NCBI RefSeq assembly: GCF_964355755.1
Contig: NC_092676.1
Coordinates: 17,962,288-18,026,287 of the forward strand
DNA length: 64,000 nt
Source of the DNA: Antedon mediterranea
Lineage: Eukaryota > Echinodermata > Crinoidea > Comatulida > Antedonidae
Direction: 5' to 3'
Position numbers and translations under genes: made by a program. Below the pieces are notes generated by a model. It was not told where the DNA came from. It made no database searches and saw only the letters and a list, made by a program, of their open reading frames with translations. Of this stretch, positions 34,255-60,008 are shown in pieces; the stretch's first letter is position 1; each line of letters opens with the position of its first letter.

Positions 34255-35239
34255 TTAACGATTTGTTTTTTCGCTTGAACATGTATATATGATCGTGTAC
34301 AGATACGGATTAACTGCCGAGTTGATCGGTAAAATGAAGGTTGCTGCCCAAACATATATTTCTGCAGGGATATCCCAATGTTTAGTTTCCGAGCAAATTC
34401 CCATTAAAATGATGGGAAACCAGCAACAAAAATCTGTACCAATTATAAACACTAGCTTCCGTGCAATTCGCAACTGTTCTTCAAAGCTTTTCCTTCTATT
34501 AACAGTCGCTGATGATCTTTTCACAGAAAAAAATATTGTGAGATAACTGACGACCATGACCAAGAAACCGAAACCGTTAAATGCAATGAAGATAGCAGTG
34601 GCATACTCCCAGCCTGGTAAATGGCTTCGAGTTAGCGGTAACGGAAGGCAGACACTCTGTTTACCATAGTAGTTCTGTCCAAAGTAAGGCAGGTCGATAA
34701 AGCTCAGTTTATTTGCAGCTACCGGTAAGAAACTGATAGCAGCAATAACAACCCAAGCAATGACGATGACTATTTTGCATGTTTTACGACTGAGACGTCT
34801 AGTGTTAAAAGGACTAACAATGTTTACAGCCCGGTCGACGCTCATAACCATCAACGTAAACACCGAGCATTCACTGGAAAGAGTAGAAATAGCACCTGCA
34901 AAACTGCAAGTGAAACTACTTTTCCAATATTCTAGAACTTCCGAGTATCTACCTCTATAGTGAATATCAGCCCCTGCAATAATTAGCAGATACATTGCCA
35001 TAAGTAGATCAGAGATGGCAAGACTGGAGATCAGCATGGAATCAACAGTTTTCTCTTTATTGCAACACCTTGATATGAGAACAAGTGCATTGCCAATAAT
35101 GGAGGAAACACCAATTACGAGCATCAACACCCGAAGCGATTTCCTTTTTAGTAAATCTTGGCATGATGCGAAAGCATCAGTGGGTTCACAGATCTCAATG
35201 TCACCAACAACACAACACAGATGGAAAAAATCTGAATAA
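34255..35239 (-). CDS. RXFP-like exon 19: hinge and seven-transmembrane domain
   Basis: Single 985-bp exon. The hinge has FHLCCVVGDIEICEP then AFASCQDLL, the LGR-type cysteine box joining LRRs to TM1. TM1 has GNALVLISR, TM2 LAISDLLMAMYLL, TM3 region TCSFAGAISTLSSECSVF followed by VDRAV in place of DRY, TM4 IVIAWVVIAAISFLP, second loop NYYGKQSVCLPLPLTR (close to the RXFP1 NYYG..CFPLH stretch), TM5 FIAFNGFGFLVMVVSYLTIF, TM6 FIIGTDFCCWFPI and TM7 LPINSAVNPYLYTI with NPxxY. The C-tail is only about 12 residues, much shorter than in vertebrate RXFPs. Stop is TAA at 34255-34257. Best guess is coupling to G proteins at the plasma membrane with a peptide ligand; the ligand is unknown. Confidence 0.92.
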
Positions 35240-38200
35240 CTGAATGAAAAGAAATAGGATAGTTATATATTCATAATTGATAATTGTAAAGTGTAAATAG
35301 CTAATTGCTAATTTCAAAAAGTGTAAATAGCTAATTTCAAAAAGTGTAAATAGCTAATTTCTAATTTAAAAAAATGTAATATTAGCCGTTTTTTCTTGCC
35401 AGCATGTATTTATTATATGGAATTCTTTTTTTATATAGAATACAATTTTCCTTGTTTCAGCAGTACAGCTGGGTCAACATTTTCTATCATGACTCGTCTT
35501 TACAGACACATTCCATTATTGTTCCGGCCTTTTCACTGAGATTGAGAAGTTCACACGTATGAATTCTTCTGATAACTTTTTAACCACTTGTTACATTTGA
35601 AAACAAAAGTGAATCTGTGAAATTGGTACTAAATGGCATTTAAATACAAAATCAAAGGGGGACAACAGATCACACCACCCTACATACAGCCATTTGCATT
35701 CATAATGTAAAATAAATTTACTTACAACTCTGTTAAATTTACCAACTCTTTAAAAGTCTTTTCTTCATAATCTTTCAAGTTGTTGTATGTTAGGTTTCTG
35801 TAGGATAATAAATTCAGAATGATCATATCCATTTAATAATAACTTTAAATTCACATGTCATGAGGAAACTTTCTGAATGATTGAAATCAAAACAGTACTG
35901 GGTTTGGTTTACTAGCATTCCTGCTCCCAAAAGTCATCCATTCATAGAAGCACTGATGAAGAAAGTCTATCCATGGTGGCCATAGAATGGTCCTCAAACA
36001 TACTTTGGCTTTAGTTGATAGAAGTTTGAAACATTTTATTAGAAATAGAGTATATGTAAGTTATAAACTTTGTGGCAATGACAATGTTTACAAAAAGCTG
36101 AATGTGCATTAGAGGCAAGAATACAAGCAGGTGTCTTACAATACAGATTATGAACTTACAGAATTAAAAGTGATGAAGCAAATGGAGAAAATGCACCATC
36201 CTCTATGTTAGTTATAGAGTTGTTCTGTAACTGTCTGTTAACAAATTAACAACAAAAATTATGATCCTAAATTTAGTTATCTGAAGATGATCAACTGCAA
36301 TTGCCTTTATTGGTATTTACTGCTCTGTCACAGTACTATATTATTCAATGTAATCAACTAAAGTACATGTTTTAAAGATACAGTATACTGTCCCACTGTA
36401 AAAATGAATTTACTATTAATCTTTGTTAAACATGCCATTCTAATGTCACATAATAGTAATCATCAGTCATTGAAATTTTAAAATAAATAACAATTATTAC
36501 TATCAACTATGATTAATGAATTAAGAGTATAACACAATACGTACAAAACATACTTACAATATTTGCAAATTGTTCAATCCATCAAATATATCAGCTGGTA
36601 AATTACTAATTTGGTTGTTTTCCAAAAATCTGCAAAAATAAAAATGAACAACATTTAAAGTGAAGTTTGACTATTTTATATTTTACCCATGGTTTCACTA
36701 TTTTGTTTTCTTTATTTTTTTTTAACATAATTTTTTATCCAACTTTTAAAATTTATGTATGATCTTGTTTAGAGAAAGTATATAAAAAGAAAGTTGAAAA
36801 ATTAATGTTTTTATTTAATATGATTAACTTAAATTAATCATTTCACAATAATTTTACAAATGTTATAATAAATTGCAATTATTGCTATTCATCATCATCA
36901 CAAACAGGGCACTTAAGACTTCTCCAATCAGAGAGATTATTAGCCAAAGTGTACATAGACTTATTTATTTTTTCTTTTTGCATCATTTTCTATAATTTTT
37001 ATCCATGTGGTTCTAGGTTGTTCTCTTCTGTCATTGATTCAGATAGAGCTCCTTGTGCTGGGATATCATAGTCTAGACTAAGAAGGTGTCCACACCATGT
37101 CAAGCGTCTTCTCTTTATAACTCTGTTCCATTTTTCCTCATTTGTGCTGTTATATAAATCTATATTTGTTATTATATTAGACCATCTGGAATAATTAATG
37201 TTTAAGTTAAATGCCTTCAGTTGATTATGTTGCTATCAACTATGATTAATGAATTAAGAGTATAACACAATACGTACAAAACATACTTACAATCTTTGCA
37301 AATTGTTCAATCCATCAAATATATCAGCTGGTAAATTACTAATTTGGTTGCCCCACAAAGATCTGCAAAAATAAAAAATGAACAACATTTACAAGTGAAG
37401 TTTGACTACTTTATATTTTACCCATGGTTTCACTATTTTGTTATATTTAGTTTATTTTAACATAATTTAATAAGCAAAAGTACATATAAGGGCACTATAC
37501 TGTATTTCATTAGTGATACATATATCAATCATATTGATTGAATTATTAGTGTCTATGATTCATGCACCTTTCTGACCGTTGATCATTCACTAGAGCACTG
37601 TTAATATGTCCATTAATACAACATCTGTATCATTTTTTTTAAAGCCAACACATTAAAAATATTTCATTTATGTAAAAATAATGTTTCAAATTTATAGCTT
37701 TTGTTTAATAATAACACAATAAGTACAAAACATACTTACAAGTCTTGCAAATTGTTCAATCCATCAAATATATCAGCTGGTAAATTTCGAATTTCATTAC
37801 CATTCAACCATCTGAAAAAAAATTAAAAATTAACCACATTTAAAAGTGAAATTTGTCTATTTTATCACCCATGCTTTTACTAAATTTGTTTTCCTTCGTT
37901 TATTTTAACATATTTTTTAAGGCAAATTTGTATGATAATTTACGTATGATAATTTTGTTCAGTTCTTTTTGTTATTATATTAGGCCATCTGGAAAGATTA
38001 ATGTTTAAGTTAAATGCCTTCAGTTGATTATGTTGCTATCAACTATGATTAATGAATTGTGAGTAATAATAATGCAATAAGTACAAAACATATACTTACA
38101 AGACTTGCAAATTGTTCAATCCATCAAATATATCAGCTGGTAAATTACTAATTTGGTTGTCGTACAAATATCTGCAAAAATAATATAGAACATTTAAAAG

Positions 38201-41200
38201 TGAAGTTTGTATACTTTATACTACCTATGGTTTCACTATTTTGATTTCTTTAGTTTATTTTAACATAATTTTGTATCCAACTTTTAAAATTTATGTTTGA
38301 TCTTGTTTAGGGAAAGTATATAAAAAGAAAGTTGAAAAATTAATGTTTTTATTTAATATGATTAACTTAAATTAATCATTTCACAATAATTTTACAAATG
38401 TTATAATAAATTGCAATTATTGCTATTCATCATCATCACAAACAGAGCACTTAAGATTTCTCCAATCAGAGAGATTATTAGCCAAAGTGTAAATAGACTT
38501 ATTAGGTGATCATTTAGAATAAAATGATCACCTATTGTTATTGTACAAAATCTTTATTGTTATTATTATTCTTCTTTCTGTACACTTTTTGTTCGTCAAA
38601 TATCACAAAAAGTTGAATAGCAATGATCACAAAAATTTCACAATGTCTTTCAAATATTTTAACTTAGCCATAATAAGCTTTTCAGCGTGATCACTCATCC
38701 GTTGCGTCACGTATACGCCATTTTGTGAAATCACATTATCAATCATATATCCATAATTTATTATCACATATTTATGAAATTCACTACACGTAAACTTCAG
38801 GTCAAGGGTAAAAATATTAGCAAGTAAAAATGCGCGCGCACGTAGGGTCATGCGTGTGGAATCGCGCAGTAAAAATTTAAAAAGCTCAAAATTACGTTTT
38901 AATCAATTTAGAGCATGAATTAGGCCATTTGCGTGTTTCAAAAAATGACTGCGCAAAAAAAATATTTTGCGCGCGCGATACATACAAAGCGTAAAAATTG
39001 CAGTTTTTTTATACAAATCGCGTTCTACTCACCATCCTTAGTACATTCACCTAATTTGAGTAAGTTCCGACTGAAAATAACGCTATACGAGCAGGTTAAA
39101 AATAACAAAATGCGCAAATTAATTGCATCAAAGTGCTGAAAATGGTGAAAAATAAGGCCTTTTTAAAATGAATATAACTCTTCAGAATGGCAGGTGACCC
39201 CCAATTTTTTTAACTTATTCGGGAAGCCATTGGGTTGTAGATACATATTCATGTACACATTAGACGTACAAAATGGTATGACGTCATCAAATGGCCACTT
39301 CAATTTAAAAATTAGTAATTTTAATCTTTTTGTGTGGGTTATCACATTCAATAGACCGCATCTCCGTTATTTGAGCCCGATTTTCGCCGAAATTTTAGTA
39401 TGTGCTTGCTCAATTAATTATCTTTCTCAAGGGTTGTCAACATTTTTATTTTGATGACGTCATCATGTGTAAAAACTTTAATAACCAAGGTCGTGTAATT
39501 TCAGCTACACCATACATTTGAATATGTTATAGCTCTTCAGAATTAAAGGTGACCTTGAAGATTATAATTTATTATGAAAGCTGATTAAATGTAGATATGA
39601 ATTCATATAAAAATTAAGCCTATCGGATGTTGTGATGTTATCATATGGCCAGTTGAAGTTAAAACGTTGTTTTTAAATTTCTTTAGTCAAAGTTATACAA
39701 ATTTCAAAGAGCGCGCATTGCGCTTCTACGTGTCAAATTATCTTCCAATCCTTATATTTATTTGCTCAATTCATTATCTTTCGAAATTGTCATCTTCGAG
39801 TTTATTTTGATAATTCCATCATACCAAAAAATTTGAACATGATGTGGGTCCCGTAATTTCACCTATGCTACACTGTATATAGATATACAGTATATACTGT
39901 ACATATTGTATATGACACATAATAGGCACAACTCCGCACTATAAGCGTATAACAGGATGGTATACATCAACATTTTCCTATTGTATGTTAACGTACGTGC
40001 ATGTTTAAAAAATATTAATGTAAGTAAAGCGATAAAAATGATCACCTATAATTCGTCAAAGTGACGAATTAAATTCTAGTTTGTTTTTTCTTTTTGCATC
40101 ATTTTCTATAATAATTTTTATCCATGTGGTTCTAGGTTGTTCTCTTCTGTCATTGATTCTGATAGAGCTCCTTGTGCTGGGATATCATAGTCTAGACAAA
40201 GAAGGTGTCCACACCATGTCAAGCGTCTTCTCTTTATAACTCTGTTCCATTTTTCCTCATTTGTGCTGTTATATAAATCTATATTTGTTATTATATTAGA
40301 CCATCTGGAATAATTAATGTTTAAGATAAATGCCTTCAGTTGATTATGTTGCTATCAACTATGATTAATGAATTGTGAGTAATAATAATGCAATAAAGTA
40401 CAAAACATACTTACAACCATAGCAAATTGTTCAATCCATCAAATATATCAGCTGGTAAATTACTAATTTGGTTATTATCCAAAGCTCTGCAAAAATAAAA
40501 AATGAACAACATTTAAAAGTGAAGTTTTACTACTTTATATGCTACCCATGGTTTCACTATTTTGATTTCTTAAGTATATTTTAACATAATTTTTTATCCA
40601 ACTTTTGGAATTTATGTATGATTATTTTGTTCAGGGTAAACTTAACATTGCAAGTTGAAACAGAATTCAGATCTTATAAAAGAGCACTGTGAATATGTCC
40701 ATTAAATACAATAATTTGTTTCATTGTGGTTAAAATCAACACATCAAATATATTTGATTTATATGAAAATAATGTTGAAAAATTAATGTTTTTTTGTTTA
40801 ATATGATTAACTTAAATTAATCATTTCAAAATAATTTTACAAATGTTATAATAAATTGCAATTATTGCTATTTATCATCATCACGAACACTGAACGTCAT
40901 CTGACATAGTGCACTTTTAAGTCTTAAAAGACTTCTACAATCAGAGAGATTATTGGCCAAAGTGTGCATGGAATTATTTATTTTTTCTTTTCTATCATTT
41001 TTTATAATTTTTATCCATGTGGTTCTAGGTTGTTCTCTTCTGTCATTGATTCTGATAGAGCTCCTTGTGCTGGGATATCATAGTCTAGATAAAGAAAGTG
41101 TCCACACCATGTCAAGCGTCTTCTCTTTATAACTCTGTTCCATTTTTCCTCATTTGTGCTGTTATATAAATCTATATTTGTTATTATATTAGGCCATTTG

Positions 41201-44200
41201 GAATAATTAATGTTTAAGTTAAATGCCTTCAGTTGATTATGTTGCTATTATTATCTATGATTAATGAATTGTGAGTAATAATAATGCAATAAGTACAAAA
41301 CATACTTACAAGACTTGTAAATTGTTCAATCCATCAAATATATCAGCTGGTAAATTACTAATTTGGTTGTCATGCAAATATCTGCAAAAACAAAAAATGA
41401 ACAACATTTAAAATTGAAGTTTGACTACTTTATATTTTACCCATAGTTTCACTATTTTGTTTCTTTAGTTTTTTTAAACATAATTTTGTATCCAACTTTT
41501 AAAATGTATGTATGATCTTGTTTAGGGAAAGTATATAAAAATAAAGTTGAAAAATTAATATTTTTATTTAATATGATTAACTTAAATTAATCATTTCACA
41601 ATAATTTTACAAATGTTATAATAAATTGCAATTATTGATATTTATCATCATCATCACGTACACTGAACGCCATGTGACATAGTGCACTTTTAAGTCTTAA
41701 AAGACTTCTCCAATCAGAGAGATTATTAGCCAAAGTGTACATAGACTTATTTATTTTTTCTTTTTGCATCATTTTCTATAATTTTTATCCATGTGGTTCT
41801 AGGTTGTTCTCTTTTGTCATTGATTCAGATAGAGCTCCTTGTGCTGGGATATCATAGTCTAGACAAAGAAGTTATAACTCTGTTCCATGTTTCCTCATGT
41901 GTGCTGTTATATAAATCTATATTTGTTATTATATTAGGCCATTTGGAATAATTAATGTTCAAGTTAAATAACTTCAGTTGATTATGTTCCTATTAACTAT
42001 GATTAATGAATTGTGAGTAATAATAATGCAATAAGTACAAAACATACTTACAAGTCTAGCAAAGTGTTCAATCCATGAAATATACCAGCTGGTAAATCAC
42101 TAATTTGGTTGTCATAAAGATATCTGCAAAACCAAAATAAACAACATTTAAAAGTGAAGTTTTACTACTTTATACTACCCATAGTTTCACTATTTTGTTT
42201 TCTTTAGTTTATTTTAACATAATTTTTTATCCAACTTTTGGAATTTATGTATGATCTTGTTTAGGGAAAGTATATAAAAATAAAGTTGAAAAATTAATAT
42301 TTTTATTTAATATGATTAACTTAAATTAATCATTTCACAATAATTTTACAAATGTTATAATAAATTGCAATTATTGATATTTATCATCATCATCACGTAC
42401 ACTGAACGCCATGTGACATAGTGCACTTAAGACTTCTTCAATCTGAGAGATTATTGGCCAAAGTGTACATAGACTTATTTGTTCTATAATTTTTATCCAT
42501 GTGGTTTTAGGTCGTGTTTTGACTTTTCTCATTGATTCAGATAGAGTTCATTGCGCCGGGATATCATAGTCTAGACAAAGAAAGTGTCCACACCATGTCT
42601 AGCGTCTTCTCTTTATAACTCTGTTCCATTTTTCCTCATTTGTGCTGTTATATAAATCTATATTTGTTATTATATTAGGCCATCTGGAATGATTAATGTT
42701 TAAGTTAAATGCCTTCAGTTGATTATGTTGCTATTAACTATGATTAATGAATTGTGAGTAATAATAATGCAATATGTACAAAACATACTTACAAGTATTG
42801 CAAATTGTTCAATCCATGAAATATATCAGCTGGTAAATTACTAATTTGGTTATTATCCAACCATCTGCAAAAACAAAAAATGAACAACATTTAAAATTGA
42901 AGTTTGTCTACTTTATATGCTACCCATAGTTTCACTATTTTGTTTCTTTAGTTTATTTTAACATACTTTTCTATCCAACTTTTAAAATTTATGTATGATC
43001 TTGTTTATAAAAGAAAGTTGAAGAATTAATGTTTTTATTTAATATGATTAACTTAAATTAATCATTTCATAATTATTTTACAAATGTTATAATAAATTGC
43101 AATTATTGCTATTCATCATCATCACAAACACTGAACGTCATGTGACATAGTGCACTTAAGATTTCTTCAATCAGAGAGATTATTGGCCAAAGTGTACATA
43201 GACTTATTTGTTCTATAATTTTTATCCATGTGGTTTTAGGTCGTGTCTTGACTTTTCTCATTGATTCAGATAGAGTTCATTGCGCTGGGATATCATAGTC
43301 TAGACAAAGAAGGTGTCCACACCATGTCAAGCGTCTTCTCTTTATAACTCTGTTCCATTTTTCCTCATTTGTGCTGTTATATAAATCTATATTTGTTATT
43401 ATATTAGGCCATTTGGAATAATTAATGTTTAATTCCTTCAGTTGATAATGTTGCTATCAACTATGATTAATGAATTGTGAGTAATAATAATGCAATAAGT
43501 ACAAAACATACTTACAAGACTTGCAAATTGTTCAATCCATCAAATATATCAGCTGGTAAATTACTAATTTGGTTGTCATGCAAATATCTGCAAAAACAAA
43601 AATAAACAACATTTAAAAGTGAAGTTTGACTACTTTATATTTTACCCATAGTTTCACTATTTTGTTATCTTTAGTTTATTTTAACATAATTTAATAAGCA
43701 AAAGTACATATAAGGGCACTATACTGTATTATATTAGGCCATTTGGAATAATTAATGTTTAAGTTAAATGCCTTCAGTTGATTATGTTGCTATCAACTTT
43801 GATTAATAAATTGTGAGTAATAATAATGCAATAAGTACAAAACATACTTACAAGACTTGCAAATTGTTCAATCCATGAAATATATCAGCTGGTAAATTAC
43901 TAATTTGGTAGAACGACAAAGCTCTGCAAAAATAAAAAATGAACAACATTTAAAAGTGAAGTTTGACTACTTTATATTACCCATAGTTTCACTATTTTGA
44001 TTTCTTAAGTATATTTTAACATAATTTTGTATCCAACTTTTGGAATTTATGTATGATCTTGTTTAGGGTAAACTTAACATTGCGAGTTGAAACAGAATTC
44101 ATATCTTATAAAAGAGAGCACTGTGAATATGTCCATTAAATACAATAATTTGTTTCATTGTGGTTAAAATCAACACATCAAAAATATTTGATTTATATGA

Positions 44201-47200
44201 AAATAATGTTGAAAAATTAATGTTTTTGTTTAATTTGATTAACTTAAATTAATCATTTCACATTATTTTACAAATGTTATAATAAATTCCAATTATGCTA
44301 TTAATCATCATCACGAACACTGAACGTCATGTGACATAGTGCACTTAAGATTTCTTCAATCAGAGAGATTATTGGCCAAAGTGTACATAGACTTATTTGT
44401 TCTATAATTTTTATCCATGTGGTTTTAGGTCGTGTCTTGACTTTTCTAATTGATTCAGATAGAGCTCCTTGTGCTGGGATATCATAGTCTAGACAAAGAA
44501 GGTGTCCACACCATGTCAAGCGTCTTCTCTTTATAACTCTGTTCCATTTTTCCTCATTTGTGCTGTTATATAAATCTATATTTGTTATTATATTAGGCCA
44601 TTTGGAATAATTAATGTTTAAGTTAAATGCCTTCAGTTGATTATGTTGCTATCAACTATGATTAATGAATTGTGAGTAATAATAATGCAATATGTACAAA
44701 ACATACTTACAACCATAGCAAATTGTTCAATCCATCAAATATATCAGCTGGTAAATTACTAAATTGGTTGTCACCCAAAACTCTGCAAAAATAAAAAATG
44801 AACAACATTTAAAAGTGAAGTTTGTCTACTTTATATGCTACCCATGGTTTCACTATTTTGTTTTCTTAAGTATATTTTAACATAATTTTTTATCCAACTT
44901 TTGGAATTTATGTATAATTATTTTGTTCAGGGAACTTAACATTGCAAGTTGAAACAGAATTCATATCTTATAAAAGAGAGCACTGTGAATATGTCCATTA
45001 AATACAATAATTTGTTTCATTGTGGTTAAAATCAACACATCAAAAATATTTGATTTATATGAAAATAATGTTGAAAAATTAATGTTTTTTGTTTAATATG
45101 ATTAACTTAAATTAATCATTTCAAAATAATTTTACAAATGTTATAATAAATTGCAATTATTGCTATTTATCATCATCATCACGTACACTGAACGTCATGT
45201 GACATAGTGCACTTTTAAGTCTTAAAAGACTTCTCCAATCAGACAGATTATTAGCCAAAGTGTACATAGACTTATTTATTTTTTCTTTTTGCATCATTTT
45301 CTATAATTTTTATCCATGTGGTTCTAGGTTGTTCTCTTCTGTCATTGATTCAGATAGAGCTCCTTGTGCTGGGATATCATAGTCTAGACAAAGAAAGTGT
45401 CCACACCATGTCTAGCGTCTTCTCTTAATCACTCTGTTCCATTTTTCCTCATTTGTGCTGTTATATAAATCTATATTTGTTATTATATTAGGCCATCTGG
45501 AATGATTAATGTTTAAGTTAAATGCCTTCAGTTGATTATGTTGCTATCAACTATGATTAATGAATTGTGAGTAATAATAATGCAATATGTACAAAACATA
45601 CTTACAACCATAGCAAATTCTTCAATCCATCAAATATATCAGCTGGTAAATTACTAAATTGGTTGTCACCCAAAACTCTGCAAAAATAAAAAATGAACAA
45701 CATTTAAAAGTGAAGTTTGTCTACTTTATATGCTACCCATGGTTTCACTATTTTGTTTTCTTAAGTATATTTTAACATAATTTTTTATCCAACTTTTGGA
45801 ATTTATGTATAATTATTTTGTTCAGGGAACTTAACATTGCAAGTTGAAACAGAATTCATATCTTATAAAAGAGAGCACTGTGAATATGTCCATTAAATAC
45901 AATAATTTGTTTCATTGTGGTTAAAATCAACACATCAAAAATATTTGATTTTATATGAAAATAATGTTGAAAAATTAATGTTTTTTGTTTAATATGATTA
46001 ACTTAAATTAATCATTTCAAAATAATTTTACAAATGTTATAATAAATTGCAATTATTGCTATTTATCATCATCATCACGTACACTGAACGTCATGTGACA
46101 TAGTGCACTTTTAAGTCTTAAAAGACTTCTCCAATCAGACAGATTATTAGCCAAAGTGTACATAGACTTATTTATTTTTTCTTTTTGCATCATTTTCTAT
46201 AATTTTTATCCATGTGGTTCTAGGTTGTTCTCTTCTGTCATTGATTCAGATAGAGCTCCTTGTGCTGGGATATCATAGTCTAGACAAAGAAAGTGTCCAC
46301 ACCATGTCTAGCGTCTTCTCTTAATCACTCTGTTCCATTTTTCCTCATTTGTGCTGTTATATAAATCTATATTTGTTATTATATTAGGCCATCTGGAATG
46401 ATTAATGTTTAAGTTAAATGCCTTCAGTTGATTATGTTGCTATTAACTATGATTAATGAATTGTGAGTAGTAATTTTTTTTTTTTTCTTTTCTTTTCTTT
46501 ATTAAAAACAAACCAATTGGCAGCAAATCTGCTGAATTGCATGGTAAGGGACAATATACATTCAAAAGACAAGTAAAGTAATAGTCATCATCTATATATA
46601 AATTTACGTAAGGGCAAAATTCGGTAAATCGCGCCTTACTTCTAGAATTTTTACTCGATGGTATATAAAGTTGGTTCGTACTTTCGGTACTGATTTTAAC
46701 CACCTGATGTAACCCTGTTTACTAATTAAATTAAGTTAGATAATTAGTTATTGACGATTAAAACGAATTTAGGTTCAACGATTTGCCCCAAATAGGGGTG
46801 TTTTCCGATCGTGGTATACACTGTCTAATGGATGTCCATCTTGAAAAATACCCGCCACAAAAATGCGAGGAGGCTTCGCATTTTCCTATCTCCTCCTACG
46901 ATAATTGTTTTTAATAGCTGAAAACCGGTTGAACAGTTCGAGTACAGCATCATAATGTTGAAGACAGGCCGATTTTCTTTAAAAAATACTATTTTGATAC
47001 ATTTAATATACGTTTTTACAAATGTATTGATTTGTGATGAATGGAACATTCCAAATTATTTGGTTTAACCATACAGGTATAGATTTAGATTTATGGGCCC
47101 CCTTGGAGAATAAACATAAATAGTATTACAATGCTGTACCAGGGAGTTCCCTGGCTGTACAATACTGTTAAGGTATTTTAATGGTTAAAACCACTTTTGA

Positions 47201-50200: not shown

Positions 50201-53200
50201 GGAATGATAAAATTTTAAAGGAAGATCGTTGATAAATAAATTAAACAAAAGCGGGCCCAGGATCGAGCCCTGCGGAACGCCCGATAACACAGGGAGCCAA
50301 TCAGATGTCTCTCCCCCAATGACAACACGCTGTTGTCTATTAGTTAAATAGCTTTTAAACCAACTTAAAAGTGAACCGGATAAACCAAATTTTGAAAGTT
50401 TAAAAATAAGCAAATCATGGGAAACGGAATCAAAAGCCTTAGAGAAATCAGTGTAAATCACATCGCACTGCTTCTTGCTGTTAATTGCATCGTATGATGT
50501 AGCAAGAAGCAGTGCAAGGTTGGTTTGACATGATCTCCCAGAGACAAAACCATGCTGCCTAGGACTTAAAGCATTAGCAACATGTGATGACAAACCATCA
50601 TGCACAATGCGCTCAAAAATCTTAGACATAGTAAGCAATAACGAAATAGGACGATAGTTACAGATTAGTTTTTTGGGACCACTCTTGTGAATTGGGACAA
50701 TATTAGCGTGTTTCCAAGATGAAGGAAAAACCCCAGAACTGTTGGCATTTATAGCTTCTGCTATTGCTTTGTTATCATCCGGTTGGACCCCTGGGACAGT
50801 AATAAGGGCTCGCTGTTGGCATTTGTTTGTTATTAGTTGAATACCTTTGTGCCAGCCAGACGGGTCACTTGACTTAAGATTTTGAATGCGATCTCTGTAA
50901 TGGAATTTCTTTGCCTGATCTATGAGTCGTATAACTTTGTTGCGCAAGAAACGCCAGAGAAACATCTTTTTCTCGGCAAAAGCAATCTGTCGTTTTCTAA
51001 TTAAGTCTTTTTCTCAGTAGAGATCCATGGTTTGTCCTGAGAATGATGTTTAATTAATTTAGTAGGGAAGTGATTGTCAATTGCATCCTGAACAGTAGTG
51101 TAAAATGCATCAGCCTTATCAGATGTAGAGGATGCATCAAGAACTTCATACCAAGGATGATTGGTTATCCATCTTCCAAACTCATAAATACAATGTTTAC
51201 GTAATGGCCTAACTAATCGTTTAATTTGTTTACCCGTTTTACTACAACCGATTGGTGGCAGGTAGATGGTATTATGATCGCTTCTTCCAATCGGAGAGCA
51301 TACAATAGGCTTCTTATAATAGTTCTTTAAATTAGTAATTACCAAATCTAATATGGCATCACCCCGAGTAGGCTGGTCTATAATCTGCTTCAACGAGTGA
51401 GCTCTACACGTACGTACGTAGGACGTACTCGAAGCCATATGCATTCCAATTCATCTGGGACAATGATGTTATTTAATGTACTTACAGGTAGGCTGTCCTT
51501 GACATAAACGGCCACTCCACCCCACGCTTTCCACTTCTCTTTGTAGTAAAAACATTAAACCCGCTTACTGCTATATAGTCATTATCAACCTTATCTGATT
51601 GGCAGGTTTCGGTAATAACAGCGATATCGGTGGTACTGACATCAGTTTGTTTCAATAATATTTCAAGTTTTTCCAATAAAGATTGGGCATTAGTAAGGAA
51701 CACACCTGGAAGAAACTTAGCAGTGAATTTTGCTGTTAATTGTGCAGGTAAAACGTATGCGAGTACAGGCGGTGGGCGAATATGACAGATGGATGGAACT
51801 GCTGGTCTGTTTCTAAAAATTACCTGTATCGGGCGTTTGATTTTCCGACCACCCCGTCTACCTCTACGAAATGCGGTTTTAAGTATACCAAGATCATCAA
51901 GCTTGTGCTTTATACTAGATGAAAGTTTAGCACCCTTAAGTGCAAGTGACTTCAACGTCTTAGCATCGTATACATACCGCGTTCGAGTGTAGGGCAGCTT
52001 CACAAGTGTAGAAAACAATAGTCTCATACATTCAGCTATGTACCACCTGTTGATTCCGTTCGCTACGTACCACCACTGGTGTAGAGCGTTGGGCCTAGGC
52101 AATTCTGTATCACTCATGTTGATAAATTTGTTACAAAAATCGTGCAAATGTCTACAGGTCTTGTCGAAAATCAGTAATAATAAACTGCATTCATAATACA
52201 TACGGTCACGGAAAAATATCACTTGGAATTCAACAAAAACTGAACAAAATAACAAGACAAGAAAAGTGTGACTGCTACCAAGCGCCACCAGATACCACAA
52301 TACTGTATGTACAAAACATACTTACAAGTATTGCAAATTGTTCAATCCATGAAATATAGCAGCTGGTAAATTACTAATTTGATTTCTCAAAATATCATAT
52401 ATGTTACTATAACTCGTGTTCCGCACGGTCTTTTTCTGCCTTAATATGTGGTTATATACTTTGCATGGACAAGTATAATAACAACGCACTTTAATAAAAG
52501 TACTTTGACAAATTATTAAAATGAAAACAAATTGTATCACGAATAAAATTCGGAACTAACTGTATTTACGGCCATTGGTTTGTTATACACTATCCCTTCA
52601 CTTTAAAATATATGTAGCTGTGCTGTGTAAATTAGATGATGCACGCAACAAAAGTATAAAAATGCCAAACTATATCATTAATATGTATTATGTATATGTA
52701 TATGTATATAATATGTATTAATTATTTGATATGTAGAGATAAAAAAAAAGTGGACAAAAATCAAATGAAAAACACATTGCTGCACAAACACGAATTGTTA
52801 AGTTTATTGGGCAGACATCTCGGTCCTAACGGGACACAGGGAGCCTACAGTTATTCCTGCAAGCTTACTCAATAAAACTCAGCTATCGGGATTTCACTCG
52901 AAAAATGTCTTATCAAATCTCCCTATGTAATTTTATAATACTATTCCCCACAATATATTCTGATTCTTTATGGCGTATATTTAATTTGATCTTTATTAAT
53001 TTGCAGTATAATTCCTATTATTTAACTACTGTACCTTCACACACGTGTGGTATGTTTTAAAATAAACAAAAAACTGAAATGGCTATGATTAATGGCCAAT
53101 TTTTTTTTCGTCTTCCAAAGGGACACTGTATTGATTGATGGAAAGTGCCTGTTTCCAGTCACCTTTAGGGTCAAATCTATTATTTTAACTGCTCCCTTGT

Positions 53201-56200: not shown

Positions 56201-59200
56201 ATTATAAAGACATCAAAAGTGTCAAAAAAGAACCCTGAGTTGAATAGAACAATCAGGCTTTCAACTCATGAACATTTTCAATAAAACTATAAAACATTCA
56301 CAACACATTATATTCTTAACTAAATTTTGATTAATTAATCTGTCACTTAAATGTTGAATCGATGTGCATGTTGTAAAGTACTAGACATCTATTAGAGGCC
56401 TAAATACTTTAAACTGTGTTATGTATCTATAAACCTGTTGTAAAGTACTAGACATCTATTAGAGGCTAAAATACTTTCAACTGTGTTCTGTTTCTATAAA
56501 CCTGTTGCAAAGTACTAGACATCTATTAGAGACAAGAGTGAGTGAGTGGCCGAGCGGTTAAGATAGTGGAACCGTAATCATGTAGCCATAACATCGGCAG
56601 GGGTTCGAGGCTCACTCACTCCATGGTTCTGGTGGTAGAACGAGTCTTCTCGGATAAGGACTATAAACCGTAGGTCCAGTGTACACAACTTGCTCGTGTG
56701 CACTTTAAAGAACCTAGTACATCTTTCGAGATGAGTAGGGGGTTACCCCGGTGTATTAGTACATCACAGCCACTGATCACCAACTGGGCCCTCTGGGAGA
56801 TCAGTCTTTGACTGAAGAGGTTACCCAGTATAAAGATAAAACAAACAAACAAACAAAAATACTTTGAACTGTGTTATGTTTCTACAAACCTGTTGCAAAG
56901 TACTAGACATCTATTAGAGGCCTAAATACTTTAAACTGTGTTATGTATCTATAAACCTGTTGTAAAGTACTAGACACCTATTAGAGGCCTAAATACTTTA
57001 AACTGTGTTATGTTTCTATAAACCTGTTGCAAAGTACTAGACATCTATTAGAGGCTAAAATACTTTGAACTGGGTTATGTATCTATAAACCTGTTGTAAA
57101 GTACTAGACATCTATTAGAGGCTAAAATACTTTGATCTGTGTTATGTTTCTATAAACCTGTTGCAAAGTACTAGACATCTATTAGAGGCTAAAATACTTT
57201 AAACTGTGTTATGTATCTATAAACCTGTTGTAAAGTACTAGACATCTATTAGAGGCCTAAATACTTTAAACTGTGTTATGTTTCTATAAACCTGTTGTAA
57301 AGTACTAGACATCTATTAGAGGCCTAAATACTTTGAGCTGTGTTCTGTTTCTATAAACCTGTTGCAAAGTACTAGACATCTATTAGAGGCTAAAATACTT
57401 TGAACTGTGTTCTGTTTCTATAAACCTGTTACAAAGTACTAGACATCTATTAGAGGCTAAATACTTTGAACTGTGTTCTGTTTCTATAAACCTATTGCAA
57501 AGTACTAGACATCTATTAGAGGCTAAAATACTTTGAACTGTGTTGTTTCTATAAACCTATTGCAAAGTACTAGACATCTATTAGAGGCTAAAATACTTTG
57601 AACTGTGTTCTGTTTCTATAAACCTATTGCAAAGTACTAGACATCTATTAGAGGCTAAAATACTTTGAACTGTGTTCTGTTTCTATAAACCTGTTGTAAA
57701 GTACTAGACATCTATTAGAGGCTAAAATACTTTGAACTGTGTTCTGTTTCTATAAACCTATTGCAAAGTACTAGACACCTATTAGAGGCCTAAATACTTT
57801 GAACTGTGTTCTGTTTCTATAAACCTATTGCAAAGTACTAGACATCTATTAGAGGCTAAAATACTTTGAACTGTGTTCTGTTTCTATAAACCTGTTGTAA
57901 AGTACTAGACATCTATTAGAGGCTAAAATACTTTGAACTGTGTTCTGTTTCTATAAACCTATTGCAAAGTACTAGACATCAATTAGAGGCTAAAATACTT
58001 TGAACTGTGTTCTGTTTCTATAAACCAAAGTGATTAAAGCACTTGACACAACCAACAATCAAGCACACAAAATTCACTAAATATTAAACTATTTCAAAAG
58101 ATTGATTGTAAAATTTACTTTTTTTAAATTTAATTTATGAATGTTAGTACTAGGAGTGTCAAGAATCATTAACATTGTATACTTACATGCATTCTAAAGG
58201 CTTATACTTATTCATCTTAATGATCAATGCTGCTATGTCACTCCATGGCACTGTTTTCTTCACACACTTGATGTCAAAATACAAATTGTATTGATCCTCT
58301 ATACCATAACATATGCAATCAATTGGACATTCTGTGGTTAAAACATAAATGTTAGATAAATATTTAAAAAAAATAGAACTTTACATAAGCATAGGGATGG
58401 TATTGTCCTGATTATGATAGATACGCCCTCCACAAGATGTGTATTTATTTTCATCTTTCTGGTTTTGTACCTTCTTCTTTCTAATTTTTTTTTTATATAT
58501 ATATTGTTTGAATTGATGGAAGCCAAAGTGAACCATGTTATATATCAAGTAACACAAGTAGACACTTAAGATATTAGATGGAGAAATGTCAATTGAGATG
58601 TTAATAACATTCTTGCATTAACAATGCTATTTTTATCTAAAAGACATTCTGATCACATGATTGGCCATAGAAACAGAAATTTAGCACAAAAAAAACAAAA
58701 AGAAATCGTCATACAGTAGATAATCAGACACAACACAACAGAAAAAAAATCATTTGAATATATCATTACATTTTAAATACATATTTTTTTATTTTTGCTA
58801 TGTTTTATTTATTCAGTTGAACATTCCATACCTTACCTTATACTGCATGCCAGTATAAAGGAAGTGTAGGTTAAACAGTAGTGTAAGTTGGAGACAGCAT
58901 AACAAAAACAGAGTTGGATCATTAGATACCAGTTCAGGGATTTAAGAGTAAATATCAGTCATTAAATTGTATTAGAAGTTAGTAATAGAACCACGAAAGA
59001 AATCAGTCAATACTAAATACGAGCATTAAGCAAGTATAAGGTTCATTAAACTTACTGATTTCACAATGAAGACCAACATATTTATCAGGACAAACACATG
59101 TATTATTTGACATGTGACATGTACCTCCATTCTGACATGGATTGCTGTTACACATAGTATCTTCAGTTCCTAACAAAATAAAACAAACTGTTAAAGTGAG

Positions 59201-60008
59201 AATTACACACACCATCTTTGATTATAATATTTCTATATACCACAGCCTATAGGCCTACTTTACTATGTACAGTATATTCTAGTCAACTTAATAGACTTTT
59301 TCTTTGAACTCCATCTAAAAGAGGCAATTTCATTTTAATACATAAAAAAAGAAAGTATGGTAATTGAGTCTAAATTGCAAGTAGGCCTACTTAAGTGATA
59401 ACTTTGTCAAAGTGTAGATACTCAGAATGAATGAAAAATAAATTATGAAAAAACCCAAAAGAACTTTACATACTTTATTTAAAGGTAATCAATATTACAG
59501 TAAATTGTACAATTCATTTTCCAAATAACAAAATAAAATGCTATAAAATAATAAACATAATTGATTGAAGACTAAAGTTTTAAGGGGTTATTCACCAATT
59601 AGAAATCTTTTTACCACTTATTTACGGTAGTCCAGTAAAAATTGTGAATTTACTACATAACAAGTAACTACTACATAACAAGTAACGACTACATAATAGA
59701 CATGCATGTTATTGCTTAAACATAGTTATGGGACTTACAGATAATATGGTCAAACAAAACCTGCTAACCACAAACTTTTATCTGTATAAATAACATCTTC
59801 CAATTTAAATTTCAAAGAAAACAATTTTGTTACAAAACTTTTGTAAAGAATATAAACAACACAAAAAAAAACATTTAAAAAATTTGTTCTCAAACAGTCA
59901 ATTAATCCTACTGCTGCTACACAATCAAAATAAATGAATCATACCATTTGTGGAACAACTACACAATTTGAATCCAACAAAAATTATAATGCACTGCAAG
60001 GTAAACAT
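34255..60008 (-). CDS. RXFP-like: Leucine-rich-repeat GPCR, relaxin receptor-like (LGR type C), 19 coding exons
   Basis: Coding exons: 59945-60008 (signal peptide), 59056-59169 (EGF), 58187-58331 (LRR N-cap), 55097-55168, 45606-45677, 44711-44782, 43852-43923, 43516-43587, 42793-42864, 42052-42123, 41310-41381, 40415-40486, 38100-38171, 37740-37811, 37291-37362, 36558-36629, 36160-36234, 35726-35797 (LRRs) and 34255-35239 (hinge plus 7TM). Borders are AC/CT on the plus strand (GT..AG on minus). Phases agree and the sum is 2391 bp, 796 residues plus TAA. All LRR exons are phase 2 at both ends. The 7TM part resembles RXFP1/2; these receptors sit in the plasma membrane and bind relaxin-type peptides. 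Joining the four upstream exons to the array across a 9.4-kb intron full of transposons is inference from phase compatibility; an array-internal promoter is possible. Confidence 0.8.
35283..35385. repeat. Short tandem repeat in the intron next to the 7TM exon
   Basis: Three copies of AAGTGTAAATAGCTAATTTC (period about 25-38 bp) between exon 18 and the 7TM exon. Confidence 0.7.
35726..35797 (-). CDS. RXFP-like exon 18: last LRR
   Basis: 72 bp, phase 2, encoding NLTYNNLKDYEEKTF then LVNLTEL. Diverged, ancestral-type repeat leading into the hinge. Confidence 0.82.
36160..36234 (-). CDS. RXFP-like exon 17: membrane-proximal LRR (75 bp)
   Basis: Encodes QLQNNSITNIEDGAFSPF then SLLIL. One codon longer than the cassettes and clearly diverged in scaffold; phase 2 is kept. 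Possible N-glycosylation site NNS. Confidence 0.82.
36558..36629 (-). CDS. LRR cassette exon 16 (array unit 12)
   Basis: 72 bp, phase 2. Opens FLENNQISNLPADIFDG and closes NNLQI. Last member of the homogenised array before the diverged membrane-proximal LRRs. Confidence 0.85.
37291..37362 (-). CDS. LRR cassette exon 15 (array unit 11)
   Basis: 72 bp, phase 2. Opens SLWGNQISNLPADIFDG and closes NNLQR. Confidence 0.85.
37740..37811 (-). CDS. LRR cassette exon 14 (array unit 10)
   Basis: 72 bp, phase 2. Opens WLNGNEIRNLPADIFDG and closes NNLQD. Confidence 0.84.
38100..38171 (-). CDS. LRR cassette exon 13 (array unit 9)
   Basis: 72 bp, phase 2. Opens YLYDNQISNLPADIFDG and closes NNLQV. The upstream intron carries a 1.58-kb Helitron-like insert; without it the spacing (about 737 bp) equals that of other long units. 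Confidence 0.85.
38502..40079 (+). mobile_element. Helitron-like insert in a cassette intron
   Basis: Compared with uninterrupted cassette introns, about 1578 bp is inserted between GACTTA and TTTGTTTTTTC. The right end has a hairpin (AATTCGTC / GACGAATT) followed by CTAG and then a target T, a Helitron 3' hallmark. The left end has an AGGTGATCAT hairpin and lacks the canonical TC start. No helicase ORF is present. Confidence 0.6.
40415..40486 (-). CDS. LRR cassette exon 12 (array unit 8)
   Basis: 72 bp, phase 2. Opens ALDNNQISNLPADIFDG and closes NNLLW. The start resembles unit 5 (LDNNQ) and the end units 1-2 (LLW), as expected from recombination between cassettes. Confidence 0.85.
41310..41381 (-). 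CDS. LRR cassette exon 11 (array unit 7)
   Basis: 72 bp, phase 2. Opens YLHDNQISNLPADIFDG and closes NNLQV; same protein as unit 4. Confidence 0.85.
42052..42123 (-). CDS. LRR cassette exon 10 (array unit 6)
   Basis: 72 bp, phase 2. Opens YLYDNQISDLPAGIFHG and closes NTLLD. The most scaffold-diverged unit of the central block (N to D, D to G, N to T). Confidence 0.84.
42793..42864 (-). CDS. LRR cassette exon 9 (array unit 5)
   Basis: 72 bp, phase 2. Opens WLDNNQISNLPADIFHG and closes NNLQY. Confidence 0.85.
43516..43587 (-). CDS. LRR cassette exon 8 (array unit 4)
   Basis: 72 bp, phase 2. Opens YLHDNQISNLPADIFDG and closes NNLQV; only 336 bp from unit 3, so the intron between them lacks the LINE relic found in longer units. 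Confidence 0.85.
43852..43923 (-). CDS. LRR cassette exon 7 (array unit 3)
   Basis: 72 bp, phase 2. Opens ALSFYQISNLPADIFHG and closes NNLQV. Tyr replaces the conserved LRR Asn, which may loosen the asparagine ladder at this repeat. Confidence 0.84.
44301..44560 (-). mobile_element. Decayed LINE ORF2 C-terminus inside the cassette intron (best copy)
   Basis: Minus strand reads RRRLTWCGHLLCLDYDIP, then RPKTTWIKIIEQIS, matching the WxGHxxRM...GRPxTTW C-terminal block of RTE/L1-like LINE proteins. Related copies lie in the other long cassette introns near 36900-37180, 40085-40310, 40905-41200, 41690-41940, 42410-42680, 43130-43410, 45220-45490 and 46120-46390, most with indels. Confidence 0.75.
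44711..44782 (-). CDS. LRR cassette exon 6 (array unit 2)
   Basis: 72 bp, phase 2. Opens VLGDNQFSNLPADIFDG and closes NNLLW. Sister of unit 1, 895 bp away. Confidence 0.85.
45606..45677 (-). CDS. LRR cassette exon 5 (array unit 1)
   Basis: 72 bp, phase 2. Opens (x)VLGDNQFSNLPADIFDG and closes KNLLW. Near-identical to the next unit (KNL against NNL, one visible residue) and flanked by near-identical intron for about 0.9 kb: the youngest duplication in the array. Confidence 0.85.
46591..48180 (+). mobile_element. Non-autonomous Helitron nested in the LINE 3' region
   Basis: Starts TCTATATATA after an A (46590) and ends with a GC-rich hairpin (GATGGTACGCGAGCGAAG / GCGAGCGTGCCATC) plus CTAG before a T (48181). 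That gives canonical 5'-TC, 3' hairpin, CTAG and A|T target site. No Rep/helicase ORF. Confidence 0.8.
47047..47604. repeat. 294-bp tandem duplication inside the Helitron
   Basis: Copy 1 begins at 47047 and copy 2 at 47341 with the same CATTCCAAATTATTTGG start. Copy 2 lacks a short stretch present in copy 1 (the part with CAGGGAGTTCCCTGG). Confidence 0.85.
48524..49780 (-). pseudogene. LINE family B: reverse transcriptase, 5' truncated and broken
   Basis: Starts inside the RT domain at VCDLFNSSLKEGIVPKMWKD, ISPIPKTTPASISKLRPISL; a small deletion shifts the frame near 49570. TDFSKAFDCIDHTL follows, then a deletion at about 49312 removes the PQG block. The last frame has KYVDDLSLVE (YVDD), RPISEYAVPVWHSS and ERIQKRACRIIVG to the stop at 48524. 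A different family from the upstream RT. Confidence 0.83.
49780..50999 (-). pseudogene. LINE family A: reverse transcriptase
   Basis: Readable RT blocks: WKHANIVPIHKSGPKKLICN, YRPISLLLTMSKIFERIV, QHGFVSGRSCQTNLALLL, YTDFSKAFDSVSHDLL, LSGVPQGSILGPLLFNLFIN and SLSFADDLKLF (catalytic Asp pair present). An in-frame deletion near 50745 removes the segment before WKHAN. The protein stops aligning with its family after IIRPHLEYCSVIFNSIS and continues without a stop into family B. Confidence 0.85.
51001..52117 (-). pseudogene. LINE family A: apurinic-type endonuclease region, broken
   Basis: ATG at 52115-52117 opens MSDTELPRPNALHQWWYVAN. The endonuclease shows VFLTNAQSLLEKLE, IAVITETCQS and, after the break, PIGRSDHNTIYL (SDH motif). 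About 100 residues of the middle are missing near 51410-51480, where GGVAVYVKDSLP runs into sequence in another frame, at a spot rich in ACGT repeats. A further one-base slip lies near 51005, before the RT. Confidence 0.8.
52326..52397 (-). pseudogene. Orphan LRR cassette exon with lost acceptor
   Basis: Has the array donor (TT/GTAAGT) and encodes ILRNQISNLPAAIFHG with NNLQYL, but the AG acceptor is missing and the sequence to its right is unrelated to array introns. It sits just beyond the 5' end of the LINE, showing that the LINE jumped into the array. The open frame extends right to 52540, but only from a GTG and without an acceptor. Confidence 0.7.
53754..54081 (-). mobile_element. 5'-truncated LINE fragment (C-terminal ORF2)
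   Basis: Minus strand encodes RLKDDFFQMRSNISRITRG, then RHTFSQRVINHWNSLPADVV and TFKNRID, the usual last block of CR1/Jockey-like ORF2. The 3' end has a CTAAA-type repeat (53762-53778). Confidence 0.75.
55097..55168 (-). CDS. RXFP-like exon 4: first LRR
   Basis: 72-bp phase-2 exon encoding WLQGYDERVLNIFKDNN then LSSLQWM. It is diverged in scaffold from the twelve array cassettes, so it belongs to the ancestral receptor rather than to the recent amplification. It lies 9.4 kb from the next intact LRR exon because of the LINE and other inserts. Confidence 0.78.
55496..55873. mobile_element. Short TIR element (378 bp) in receptor intron 3
   Basis: Ends are inverted copies: CTAACAACAGGACGCTGAGC at 55496 and its complement ending at 55873. 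No ORF. The target duplication is not clear. Confidence 0.75.
56380..58025. repeat. 67-bp satellite array in receptor intron 3
   Basis: About 20 head-to-tail copies of a 67-bp unit containing AGTACTAGACATCTATTAGA and TTTCTATAAACCTGTTG, with point variants (GGCC/GGCTA, TTGCAAA/TTGTAAA). The array is broken once by a SINE at 56531-56859. Confidence 0.93.
56531..56859 (+). mobile_element. tRNA-derived SINE inserted in the 67-bp satellite
   Basis: The head resembles a class II (Ser/Leu-type) tRNA: stem GAGTGAG / CTCACTC, A-box TGGCCGAGCGGTTAAG, B-box GGTTCGAGGC. A body of about 230 bp follows and the tail is (ACAA)n. Satellite sequence resumes after it with AAATACTTTGAACTG. Confidence 0.82.
58187..58331 (-). 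CDS. RXFP-like exon 3: LRR N-terminal cap
   Basis: Encodes ECPIDCICYGIEDQYN, then FDIKCVKKTVPW. The CPxxCxC..C spacing is the LRRNT cap that shields the first repeat. Acceptor CACAG at 58332-58336 and donor GTAAGT are clear; phase 1 in, phase 2 out. Confidence 0.82.
59056..59169 (-). CDS. RXFP-like exon 2: single EGF-like module
   Basis: One symmetric exon holds a complete EGF module with six cysteines: MCNSNPCQNGGTC followed by NNTCVCPDKYVGLHCE. Canonical relaxin receptors carry an LDLa module at this place; none is seen in the flanking introns. Confidence 0.85.
59945..60008 (-). CDS. RXFP-like exon 1: signal peptide
   Basis: ATG at 60006-60008 opens MFTLQCIIIFVGFKLCSCST, a short N-terminus, hydrophobic core and small residues suitable for signal peptidase cleavage. 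The exon ends AATG/GTATGA, phase 1, matching exon 2. The reading frame stays open upstream through a 23-bp tandem repeat, so an earlier start cannot be excluded, but the hydrophobic leader favours this ATG. Confidence 0.65.

Follow-up and report, generated by a model that had tools for sequence, protein, structure and literature searches.

Introduction

Genes in which every leucine-rich repeat (LRR) has an exon of its own, 72 bp long and in phase 2, with these exons arranged in tandem and shuffled, have been described for the LRR-ROCO family of the brown algae Ectocarpus and Saccharina (PMC11378527). Here we describe a similar layout in a gene for a predicted G-protein-coupled receptor (GPCR) from the crinoid Antedon mediterranea. 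The gene, G1, lies in a stretch of 64,000 nucleotides (contig NC_092676.1, positions 17,962,288 to 18,026,287), referred to below as the window, and its ectodomain is encoded in part by an array of twelve 72-bp exons, which we call cassettes. Variation among the cassettes is concentrated on the concave face of the repeats, where, in close pairs, it exceeds that of the flanking introns many times over.

The brown-algal genes are the closest precedent. The algal study reports four sites under positive selection, spaced just as they are here (14, 16, 18 and 19 in the algal numbering, 6, 8, 10 and 11 in ours), and likewise places them on the concave LRR face (PMC11378527). The two systems differ in that the algal genes encode a ROC-COR GTPase where G1 has a terminal exon for a seven-transmembrane (7TM) domain, and in that the four sites lie within one algal exon, whereas here they straddle an exon junction. 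Selection was tested by PAML site models in the algal study and by comparison with introns here, and splicing variants are reported for the algae, while G1 is known from genomic DNA alone.

In its domains, G1 resembles the type C leucine-rich-repeat-containing GPCRs (LGRs; RXFP1/2, LGR3/LGR4, GRL101), which share the LRR ectodomain, the cysteine hinge and the 7TM domain, and RXFP1 is its best structure match. Type C LGRs are expected to carry an LDLa module (PMC11863921) and have 7–9 LRRs, with 10–20 given for LGRs as a class (PMC9545775). G1 has an EGF domain and about 14 repeats, no LDLa was found by simple patterns, and it belongs to a family of dozens of copies with homogenised cassettes whose concave codons are hypervariable. 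Receptors of the RXFP/LGR3 type are reported lost from several phyla (PMC11863921). Large lineage-specific numbers are also known for the non-canonical LGRs of Trichoplax (46 LGRs) and Nematostella (13), although neither cassette arrays nor concave-site selection are reported in the excerpted text of that study (PMC9545775).

The variable lymphocyte receptors (VLRs) of lampreys have a similar LRR repeat and variable concave positions, and VLR A is among the structures matched by the G1 ectodomain. A VLR gene is incomplete in the germline and is completed somatically from donor cassettes, and VLRs have no 7TM domain; G1 is a complete germline gene with introns and an in-frame 7TM domain. A preliminary description of the locus had called the array VLR-like. 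This holds for the variable concave surface and not for the mode of assembly: the reading frames are already open in the germline (throughout G1, and as far as a 75-bp LRR exon in its three sister genes G2–G4), the splice sites are in place, and somatic assembly is therefore unneeded. In plants, NLR and LRR-RLK resistance genes occur in tandem clusters, and their LRRs are mostly not encoded by one exon per repeat. They share with G1 the diversifying selection on the LRR beta-strand face, as reported for NB-LRR genes (PMC11378527), and differ in their domains and kingdom. No report of such cassette arrays in an animal GPCR was found in the literature searched, in which subscription journals and bioRxiv were sparsely covered, so that this is weak evidence of novelty.

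Results and Discussion

G1 is encoded on the minus strand. When spliced at genomic AG/GT sites, its 17 exons give an open frame of 766 amino acids that runs from an EGF domain through an LRR N-cap (LRRNT), twelve cassettes and two further LRR exons of 75 and 72 bp to the cysteine hinge and the 7TM domain. The array had been proposed to form part of a GPCR ectodomain built of LRRs, and this one frame indeed joins the LRR exons to the 7TM domain. The twelve cassettes at 36558-45677 were all located where they had first been described, and their length, phase and first and last codons were given correctly as well. Each measures exactly 72 bp, starts with A and ends with TT, with an AG acceptor before and GTAAGT after it. 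The introns on both sides are in phase 2, and the first base of the exon completes the preceding codon. A 148-nt unit that includes the cassette exon was found 12 times, and the array therefore exceeds chance.

Compared with solved structures (PDB), the 7TM exon matches relaxin receptor 1 best (4.6e-46), followed by FSHR (1.5e-30) and LGR4 (2e-14); the ranking involves solved structures only and no tree, and the invertebrate type C2 receptor GRL101 is not among the structures compared. Genomic splice sites place the LRR ectodomain in frame with a class-A 7TM domain, the mark of an LGR, and among solved structures the 7TM domain is nearer to RXFP than to glycoprotein-hormone or R-spondin receptors, as in type C. 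For the ectodomain, the acid labile subunit of the IGF-binding complex scored best (3.6e-77), and LGR4, TLR3, RXFP1 and VLR A (2o6q, 2.6e-39) were matched too. A search of the window's minus strand by simple patterns gave no LDLa-like motif; the EGF domain is present instead, and a further exon upstream is possible. Judged by sequence, G1 is an LRR-containing GPCR related to the relaxin receptors.

G1 and three sister genes, G2, G3 and G4, are tandem copies on contig 7 and 99% alike. Between them they hold 45 intact cassettes (12, 12, 12 and 9), defined by an open frame, AG and GTAAG, the initial exon scan listing intact cassettes only. A blast search with all 45 cassettes against the four genes revealed 50 cassette-like places, the 45 intact ones and five that are damaged or partial: one common to G1 and G2 that has lost its acceptor and frame, two in G3 (one truncated, one lacking the donor) and, in G4, a fragment of 18 bp. 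Among the four genes, the 7TM exons show only 2–5 nonsynonymous and 4–11 synonymous codon differences out of 323.

In the LRR numbering LxxLxxLxLxxN, positions 6, 8, 10 and 11 face the concave side. Over the 45 intact cassettes, these positions hold 10, 10, 9 and 5 kinds of amino acid, respectively, and every other position 1–3, with moderate variability at positions 5 (Q/L), 14 (I/F) and 23 (D/H). In each of the four genes, no other of the 8855 possible four-codon sets reaches a mean amino-acid entropy as high as that of {6, 8, 10, 11}, which bears out the earlier impression of concave variation over a nearly fixed scaffold. As the exon border falls within codon 7, one beta-strand is composed of position 6 from one exon and positions 8–11 from the next. 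The 41 cassette-cassette junctions of G1–G4 thereby give 38 different strands, and the 45 cassettes comprise 38 distinct sets of codons 8–11 plus 5–6.

The introns flanking each cassette served as a neutral clock. In 27 pairs (17 cassettes) with an intron divergence below 3%, concave bases differ by 33.6%, compared to 1.8% and 1.9% in the introns and 2.9% elsewhere in the exon. The concave/intron ratio is 18.2 in these pairs (jackknife 14.8–19.2) and ranges from 9.8 to 18.2 at cut-offs of 1% to 5%. We also picked 16 disjoint pairs greedily at an intron divergence below 10%; here concave nonsynonymous divergence amounts to 45.6%, as against 3.5% in the introns and 2.0% for synonymous change in the scaffold (Fisher p about 4e-54). 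Concave sites thus change faster than neutral ones, at about 10–18 times the intron rate in close pairs.

Exon-intron units have been duplicated and recombined within and between the sister genes, in agreement with the cassette duplication and conversion first proposed. Such a unit, an exon with its intron, is duplicated by itself or as part of a block of two or three: judged from cassette positions, three-exon blocks repeat in G2 at steps of about 2482 bp, and two-exon blocks repeat at 2337-bp steps in a further array of the family (L026). Automatic alignments of overlapping pairs yielded 41 pairs with a similar downstream flank (<3%) and an upstream flank more than 20% apart, and 3 pairs with a similar upstream flank (<3%) and a downstream flank more than 25% apart; the recombination borders thus probably fall in or near the exons. 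Codons 8–11 are weakly correlated (rho 0.22, p 0.002) with the intron upstream, and codons 5–6 with neither flank. Just past the downstream end of the array, G1 and G4 diverge by only 0.6%, yet they have no identical cassette protein in common.

The family extends far beyond these four genes. In the genome assembly (354 Mb, 18 contigs), the 7TM protein query gave 107 matches, 67 of which are near full length (at least 300 of 323 residues, at least 43% identity) and spread over contigs C1 to C11; 11 of the 67 contain a stop within the match. A gene on C6 (L009, L010) has 4 cassettes and a base divergence of 7.8% from G1. With a single cassette as protein query, at least 150 matches were scored among 313 candidates, none of them within G1–G4, and since this is a lower bound, cassettes likely number several hundred genome-wide. 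The dozens of related receptors on 11 contigs, the three sister arrays, the two LRR exons that follow the array and a damaged cassette go beyond what was first described.

Two groups of relatives were observed besides. Three 7TM copies with equal scores lie 120–140 kb apart at C7:4084537, 4204508 and 4344741, reflecting either recent duplication or an assembly repeat. A tandem cluster of 8 related receptors is found at C8:24384671-24487326, with at least one in-frame stop per match, possibly at the natural protein end.

Seventeen slices of other family members (L011–L027) were fetched, and 8 were analysed for concave variation. The other nine (L012, L015, L016, L017, L018, L020, L021, L023 and L024) have too few cassettes within the slice, old divergent repeats or the same three exons twice. 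The divergent LRR exon preceding the hinge was excluded from the count in L013, L014 and L019, and in L022 together with the 75-bp exon; L025–L027 were selected for their many cassettes, and a rule that excluded cassettes close to the end of a slice removed none of those listed for these three. Variation favours the concave positions in all eight arrays, with the concave set ranking 1 of 8855 in L011, 2 in L014 and L022, 3 in L013, 13 in L026, 15 in L027, 22 in L025 and 55 in L019. Mean concave divergence clearly exceeds both introns (upstream, downstream) in six of them: L011 (0.51 against 0.25 and 0.27), L014 (0.54; 0.30, 0.33), L022 (0.48; 0.15, 0.09), L025 (0.32; 0.12, 0.25), L026 (0.27; 0.09, 0.07) and L027 (0.30; 0.08, 0.23). 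The homogeneity of the scaffold is lost in old arrays such as L019. Given this mixed outcome, the strength of the concave effect varies between arrays.

We consider it probable that the receptors are diversified in the germline, by duplication and recombination of exon units under strong diversifying selection, which would favour receptors able to bind many ligands or ligands that change. On this account, such selection would drive the change at the concave beta-strand residues, which outpaces that of the introns many times over in close pairs, with the scaffold codons and the 7TM exon conserved. With the whole array normally spliced in, about 14 or more repeats would form a horseshoe, and the different ligands of different germline receptors would be relayed via a G-protein module that all of them share. 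As each exon junction lies inside a beta-strand, an exon that is gained, lost or exchanged always gives a new in-frame strand. Rather than a single hormone, the ligands would most likely be molecules of pathogens, of allorecognition or of the environment; the role may be immune, allorecognition or chemosensory. A more far-reaching proposal treats the family as a genome-wide germline recognition system, in which dozens of LRR-GPCRs, using perhaps several hundred interchangeable cassettes, diversify their concave surfaces by exon recombination under very strong selection, vary from one individual to another in the number and order of their cassettes, and are multiplied by exon skipping into an anticipatory immune or self/non-self repertoire; this we regard as rather unlikely.

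Several observations weigh against germline diversification by selection. Path-averaged synonymous divergence is also raised in concave codons (20% in the 16 disjoint pairs), and concave third bases differ by 20% in close pairs and by 49% over all pairs. At position 11, 76 of 312 pairs with the same amino acid use different codons, with two codon lineages for Asn and Gly. Such silent change means that recombination has moved old lineages of some concave codons, or that a local mutational process contributes. The cassette pairs are, moreover, not mutually independent. Among the other arrays, L013 (concave 0.43; introns 0.38, 0.42) and L019 (0.54; 0.55, 0.54) show no clear excess over the introns, position 6 does not vary in L025 and hardly varies in L026, and several close pairs of L027 differ more outside the concave set than inside. 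Lastly, the full array gives about 14 repeats where type C LGRs have 7–9 (PMC9545775).

The repeat number bears on a combinatorial, Dscam-like alternative splicing, by which cells would include different subsets of the twelve cassettes, kept in frame by the phase-2 introns: skipping exons from an array that exceeds the type C range would leave a receptor of normal length, although about 14 repeats falls within the 10–20 of LGRs as a class (PMC9545775). All intact cassettes have 72 bp, phase 2 on both sides and similar splice sites, and brown-algal ROCO genes of the same exon layout do splice their LRR exons alternatively (PMC11378527). The preliminary description had taken the freedom of any exon to join any other in frame as grounds for possible alternative splicing. 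As 72-bp phase-2 LRR exons are ordinary in the receptor class, for example in gonadotropin receptors (PMC11378527, citing Koo et al.), their layout by itself attests neither interchangeability nor a choice of exons in splicing; we think such splicing improbable. A local mutation process of the AID or mutator type, aimed at the concave codons, would explain both the raised silent change and an excess over introns that is very high for selection alone. It would have to spare the codon for Leu 9, which lies between the hypervariable positions 8 and 10 and is TTG in 43 of 45 cassettes, and the third base of position 8, which is T in all codons but those for Trp and Leu. Pairs with the same amino acid in different codons number 0/145 at position 8, 12/98 at position 10 and 7/91 at position 6, position 11 being the exception. 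As codon differences are rare at three of the four positions, selection fits better than blanket hypermutation, and with silent positions spared in this way a blind mutator is very unlikely.

Assembly error, with repeats collapsed or expanded, is suggested by near-identical units such as cassettes 1 and 2 of G1 or cassettes 5 and 8 of G2, whose intron divergence is 0, and by the identical scores of the 7TM copies at C7:4.08-4.34 Mb. The 38 distinct codon sets in 45 cassettes, the silent differences between the sister 7TM exons and the recurrence of the pattern on several contigs leave little room for it, and we give it a very small chance. If constraint were merely relaxed, concave residues would drift freely while folding holds the scaffold. 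The conserved positions are indeed those that LRR folding needs, and concave divergence in L013 and L019 is about equal to that of the introns, which makes relaxed constraint slightly more likely and diversifying selection slightly less. Neutral sites, however, cannot outpace introns, and the concave codons of G1–G4 stand about 18-fold above them in close pairs. As the sole cause in G1–G4, relaxed constraint is refuted unless the introns were homogenised by selection with the exons spared, which would itself be selection; we hold it to be extremely improbable.

Further features of the locus

The features of G1 are collected in Table 1. The EGF exon possibly carries its own signal peptide, starting with the ATG at 59215. 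G3 and G4 have ATA at this place, and downstream of the ATG an acceptor-like TTTTGTTAG directly precedes GAACTGAAG; for these two reasons, the signal peptide of G1 may instead come from an exon further upstream. The LRRNT exon joins straight into a cassette by splicing; searched alone, this stretch gave no Pfam match, and its name rests on the motif.

Table 1. Features of G1 in the order of the transcript (positions in the window)
Feature	Position	Strand	Basis and remarks
EGF-domain exon, first coding exon located	59056..59215	-	Pfam EGF_2 on enclosing open frame; phase-1 donor
LRR N-cap (LRRNT) exon	58187..58331	-	phase 1 in, phase 2 out; CPIDCICY...PLEC, AG and GTAAGT borders
Damaged cassette, 70 bp	52326..52395	-	TG replaces acceptor AG, frame broken, donor intact; adjoins LINE; also in G2
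Cassette 1 VLGD...LW	45606..45677	-	sequence scan
Cassette 2 VLGD...LW	44711..44782	-	sequence scan
Cassette 3 ALSF...QV	43852..43923	-	sequence scan
Cassette 4 YLHD...QV	43516..43587	-	sequence scan
Cassette 5 WLDN...QY	42793..42864	-	sequence scan
Cassette 6 YLYD...LD	42052..42123	-	sequence scan
Cassette 7 YLHD...QV	41310..41381	-	sequence scan
Cassette 8 ALDN...LW	40415..40486	-	sequence scan
Cassette 9 YLYD...QV	38100..38171	-	sequence scan
Cassette 10 WLNG...QD	37740..37811	-	sequence scan
Cassette 11 SLWG...QR	37291..37362	-	sequence scan
Cassette 12 FLEN...QI	36558..36629	-	sequence scan
75-bp fixed LRR exon, protein identical across G1–G4	36160..36234	-	
72-bp LRR exon preceding the hinge, nearly fixed; few differences among G1–G4	35726..35797	-	
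Terminal exon, cysteine hinge and 7TM, includes stop	34255..35239	-	Pfam 7tm_1 5.4e-32

Traces of mobile elements, in part putative, are found in and near the array. A 300-nt repeat (36915-46421) occurs in 8 of the 11 inter-cassette introns and in the stretch upstream of cassette 1. Its minus-strand reading, WNRVIKRRRLTWCGHLL..., gave no Pfam match and presumably resembles the tail of a LINE protein. The repeat has been duplicated along with the cassette exons and may supply homology for unequal exchange. Retroelement open frames, one of them with an RVT_1 reverse transcriptase domain (Pfam), lie at 48527-52321 on the minus strand between the N-cap exon and the array, adjoining the damaged cassette. 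The intron between cassettes 9 and 8 holds an insert of ~1.5 kb (about 38500-40070) with TGATCACCT-type sequences in inverted orientation close to the two ends, read by eye, which may be a DNA transposon. Elsewhere in the window, exons of a protein kinase gene, which we take to resemble MAP3K5/ASK, are located at about 11900-17600 on the minus strand, and a minisatellite-like tandem repeat at 9938-11063 leaves several frames open on both strands (SLRDASL / SHCAMLH / NESEASR).

Conclusion

Large innate receptor families whose binding surface is diversified are known from plants, algae and, among animals, some NLRs and TLRs. Were a GPCR family to do the same, a rapidly evolving recognition surface would be coupled straight to G-protein signalling. 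In an animal GPCR and a brown-algal GTPase alike, the four diversified LRR positions are equally spaced and occur in an exon-per-repeat layout. The intron beside each cassette acts as a built-in neutral clock, by which selection on single binding residues is measurable within one genome, and what the dozens of copies of an invertebrate orphan LGR recognise becomes testable. Altogether, with strings of near-identical small exons that vary mainly at the few residues expected to contact a ligand, the family has the look of a recognition system that is inherited and evolves fast, and not that of an ordinary hormone receptor.

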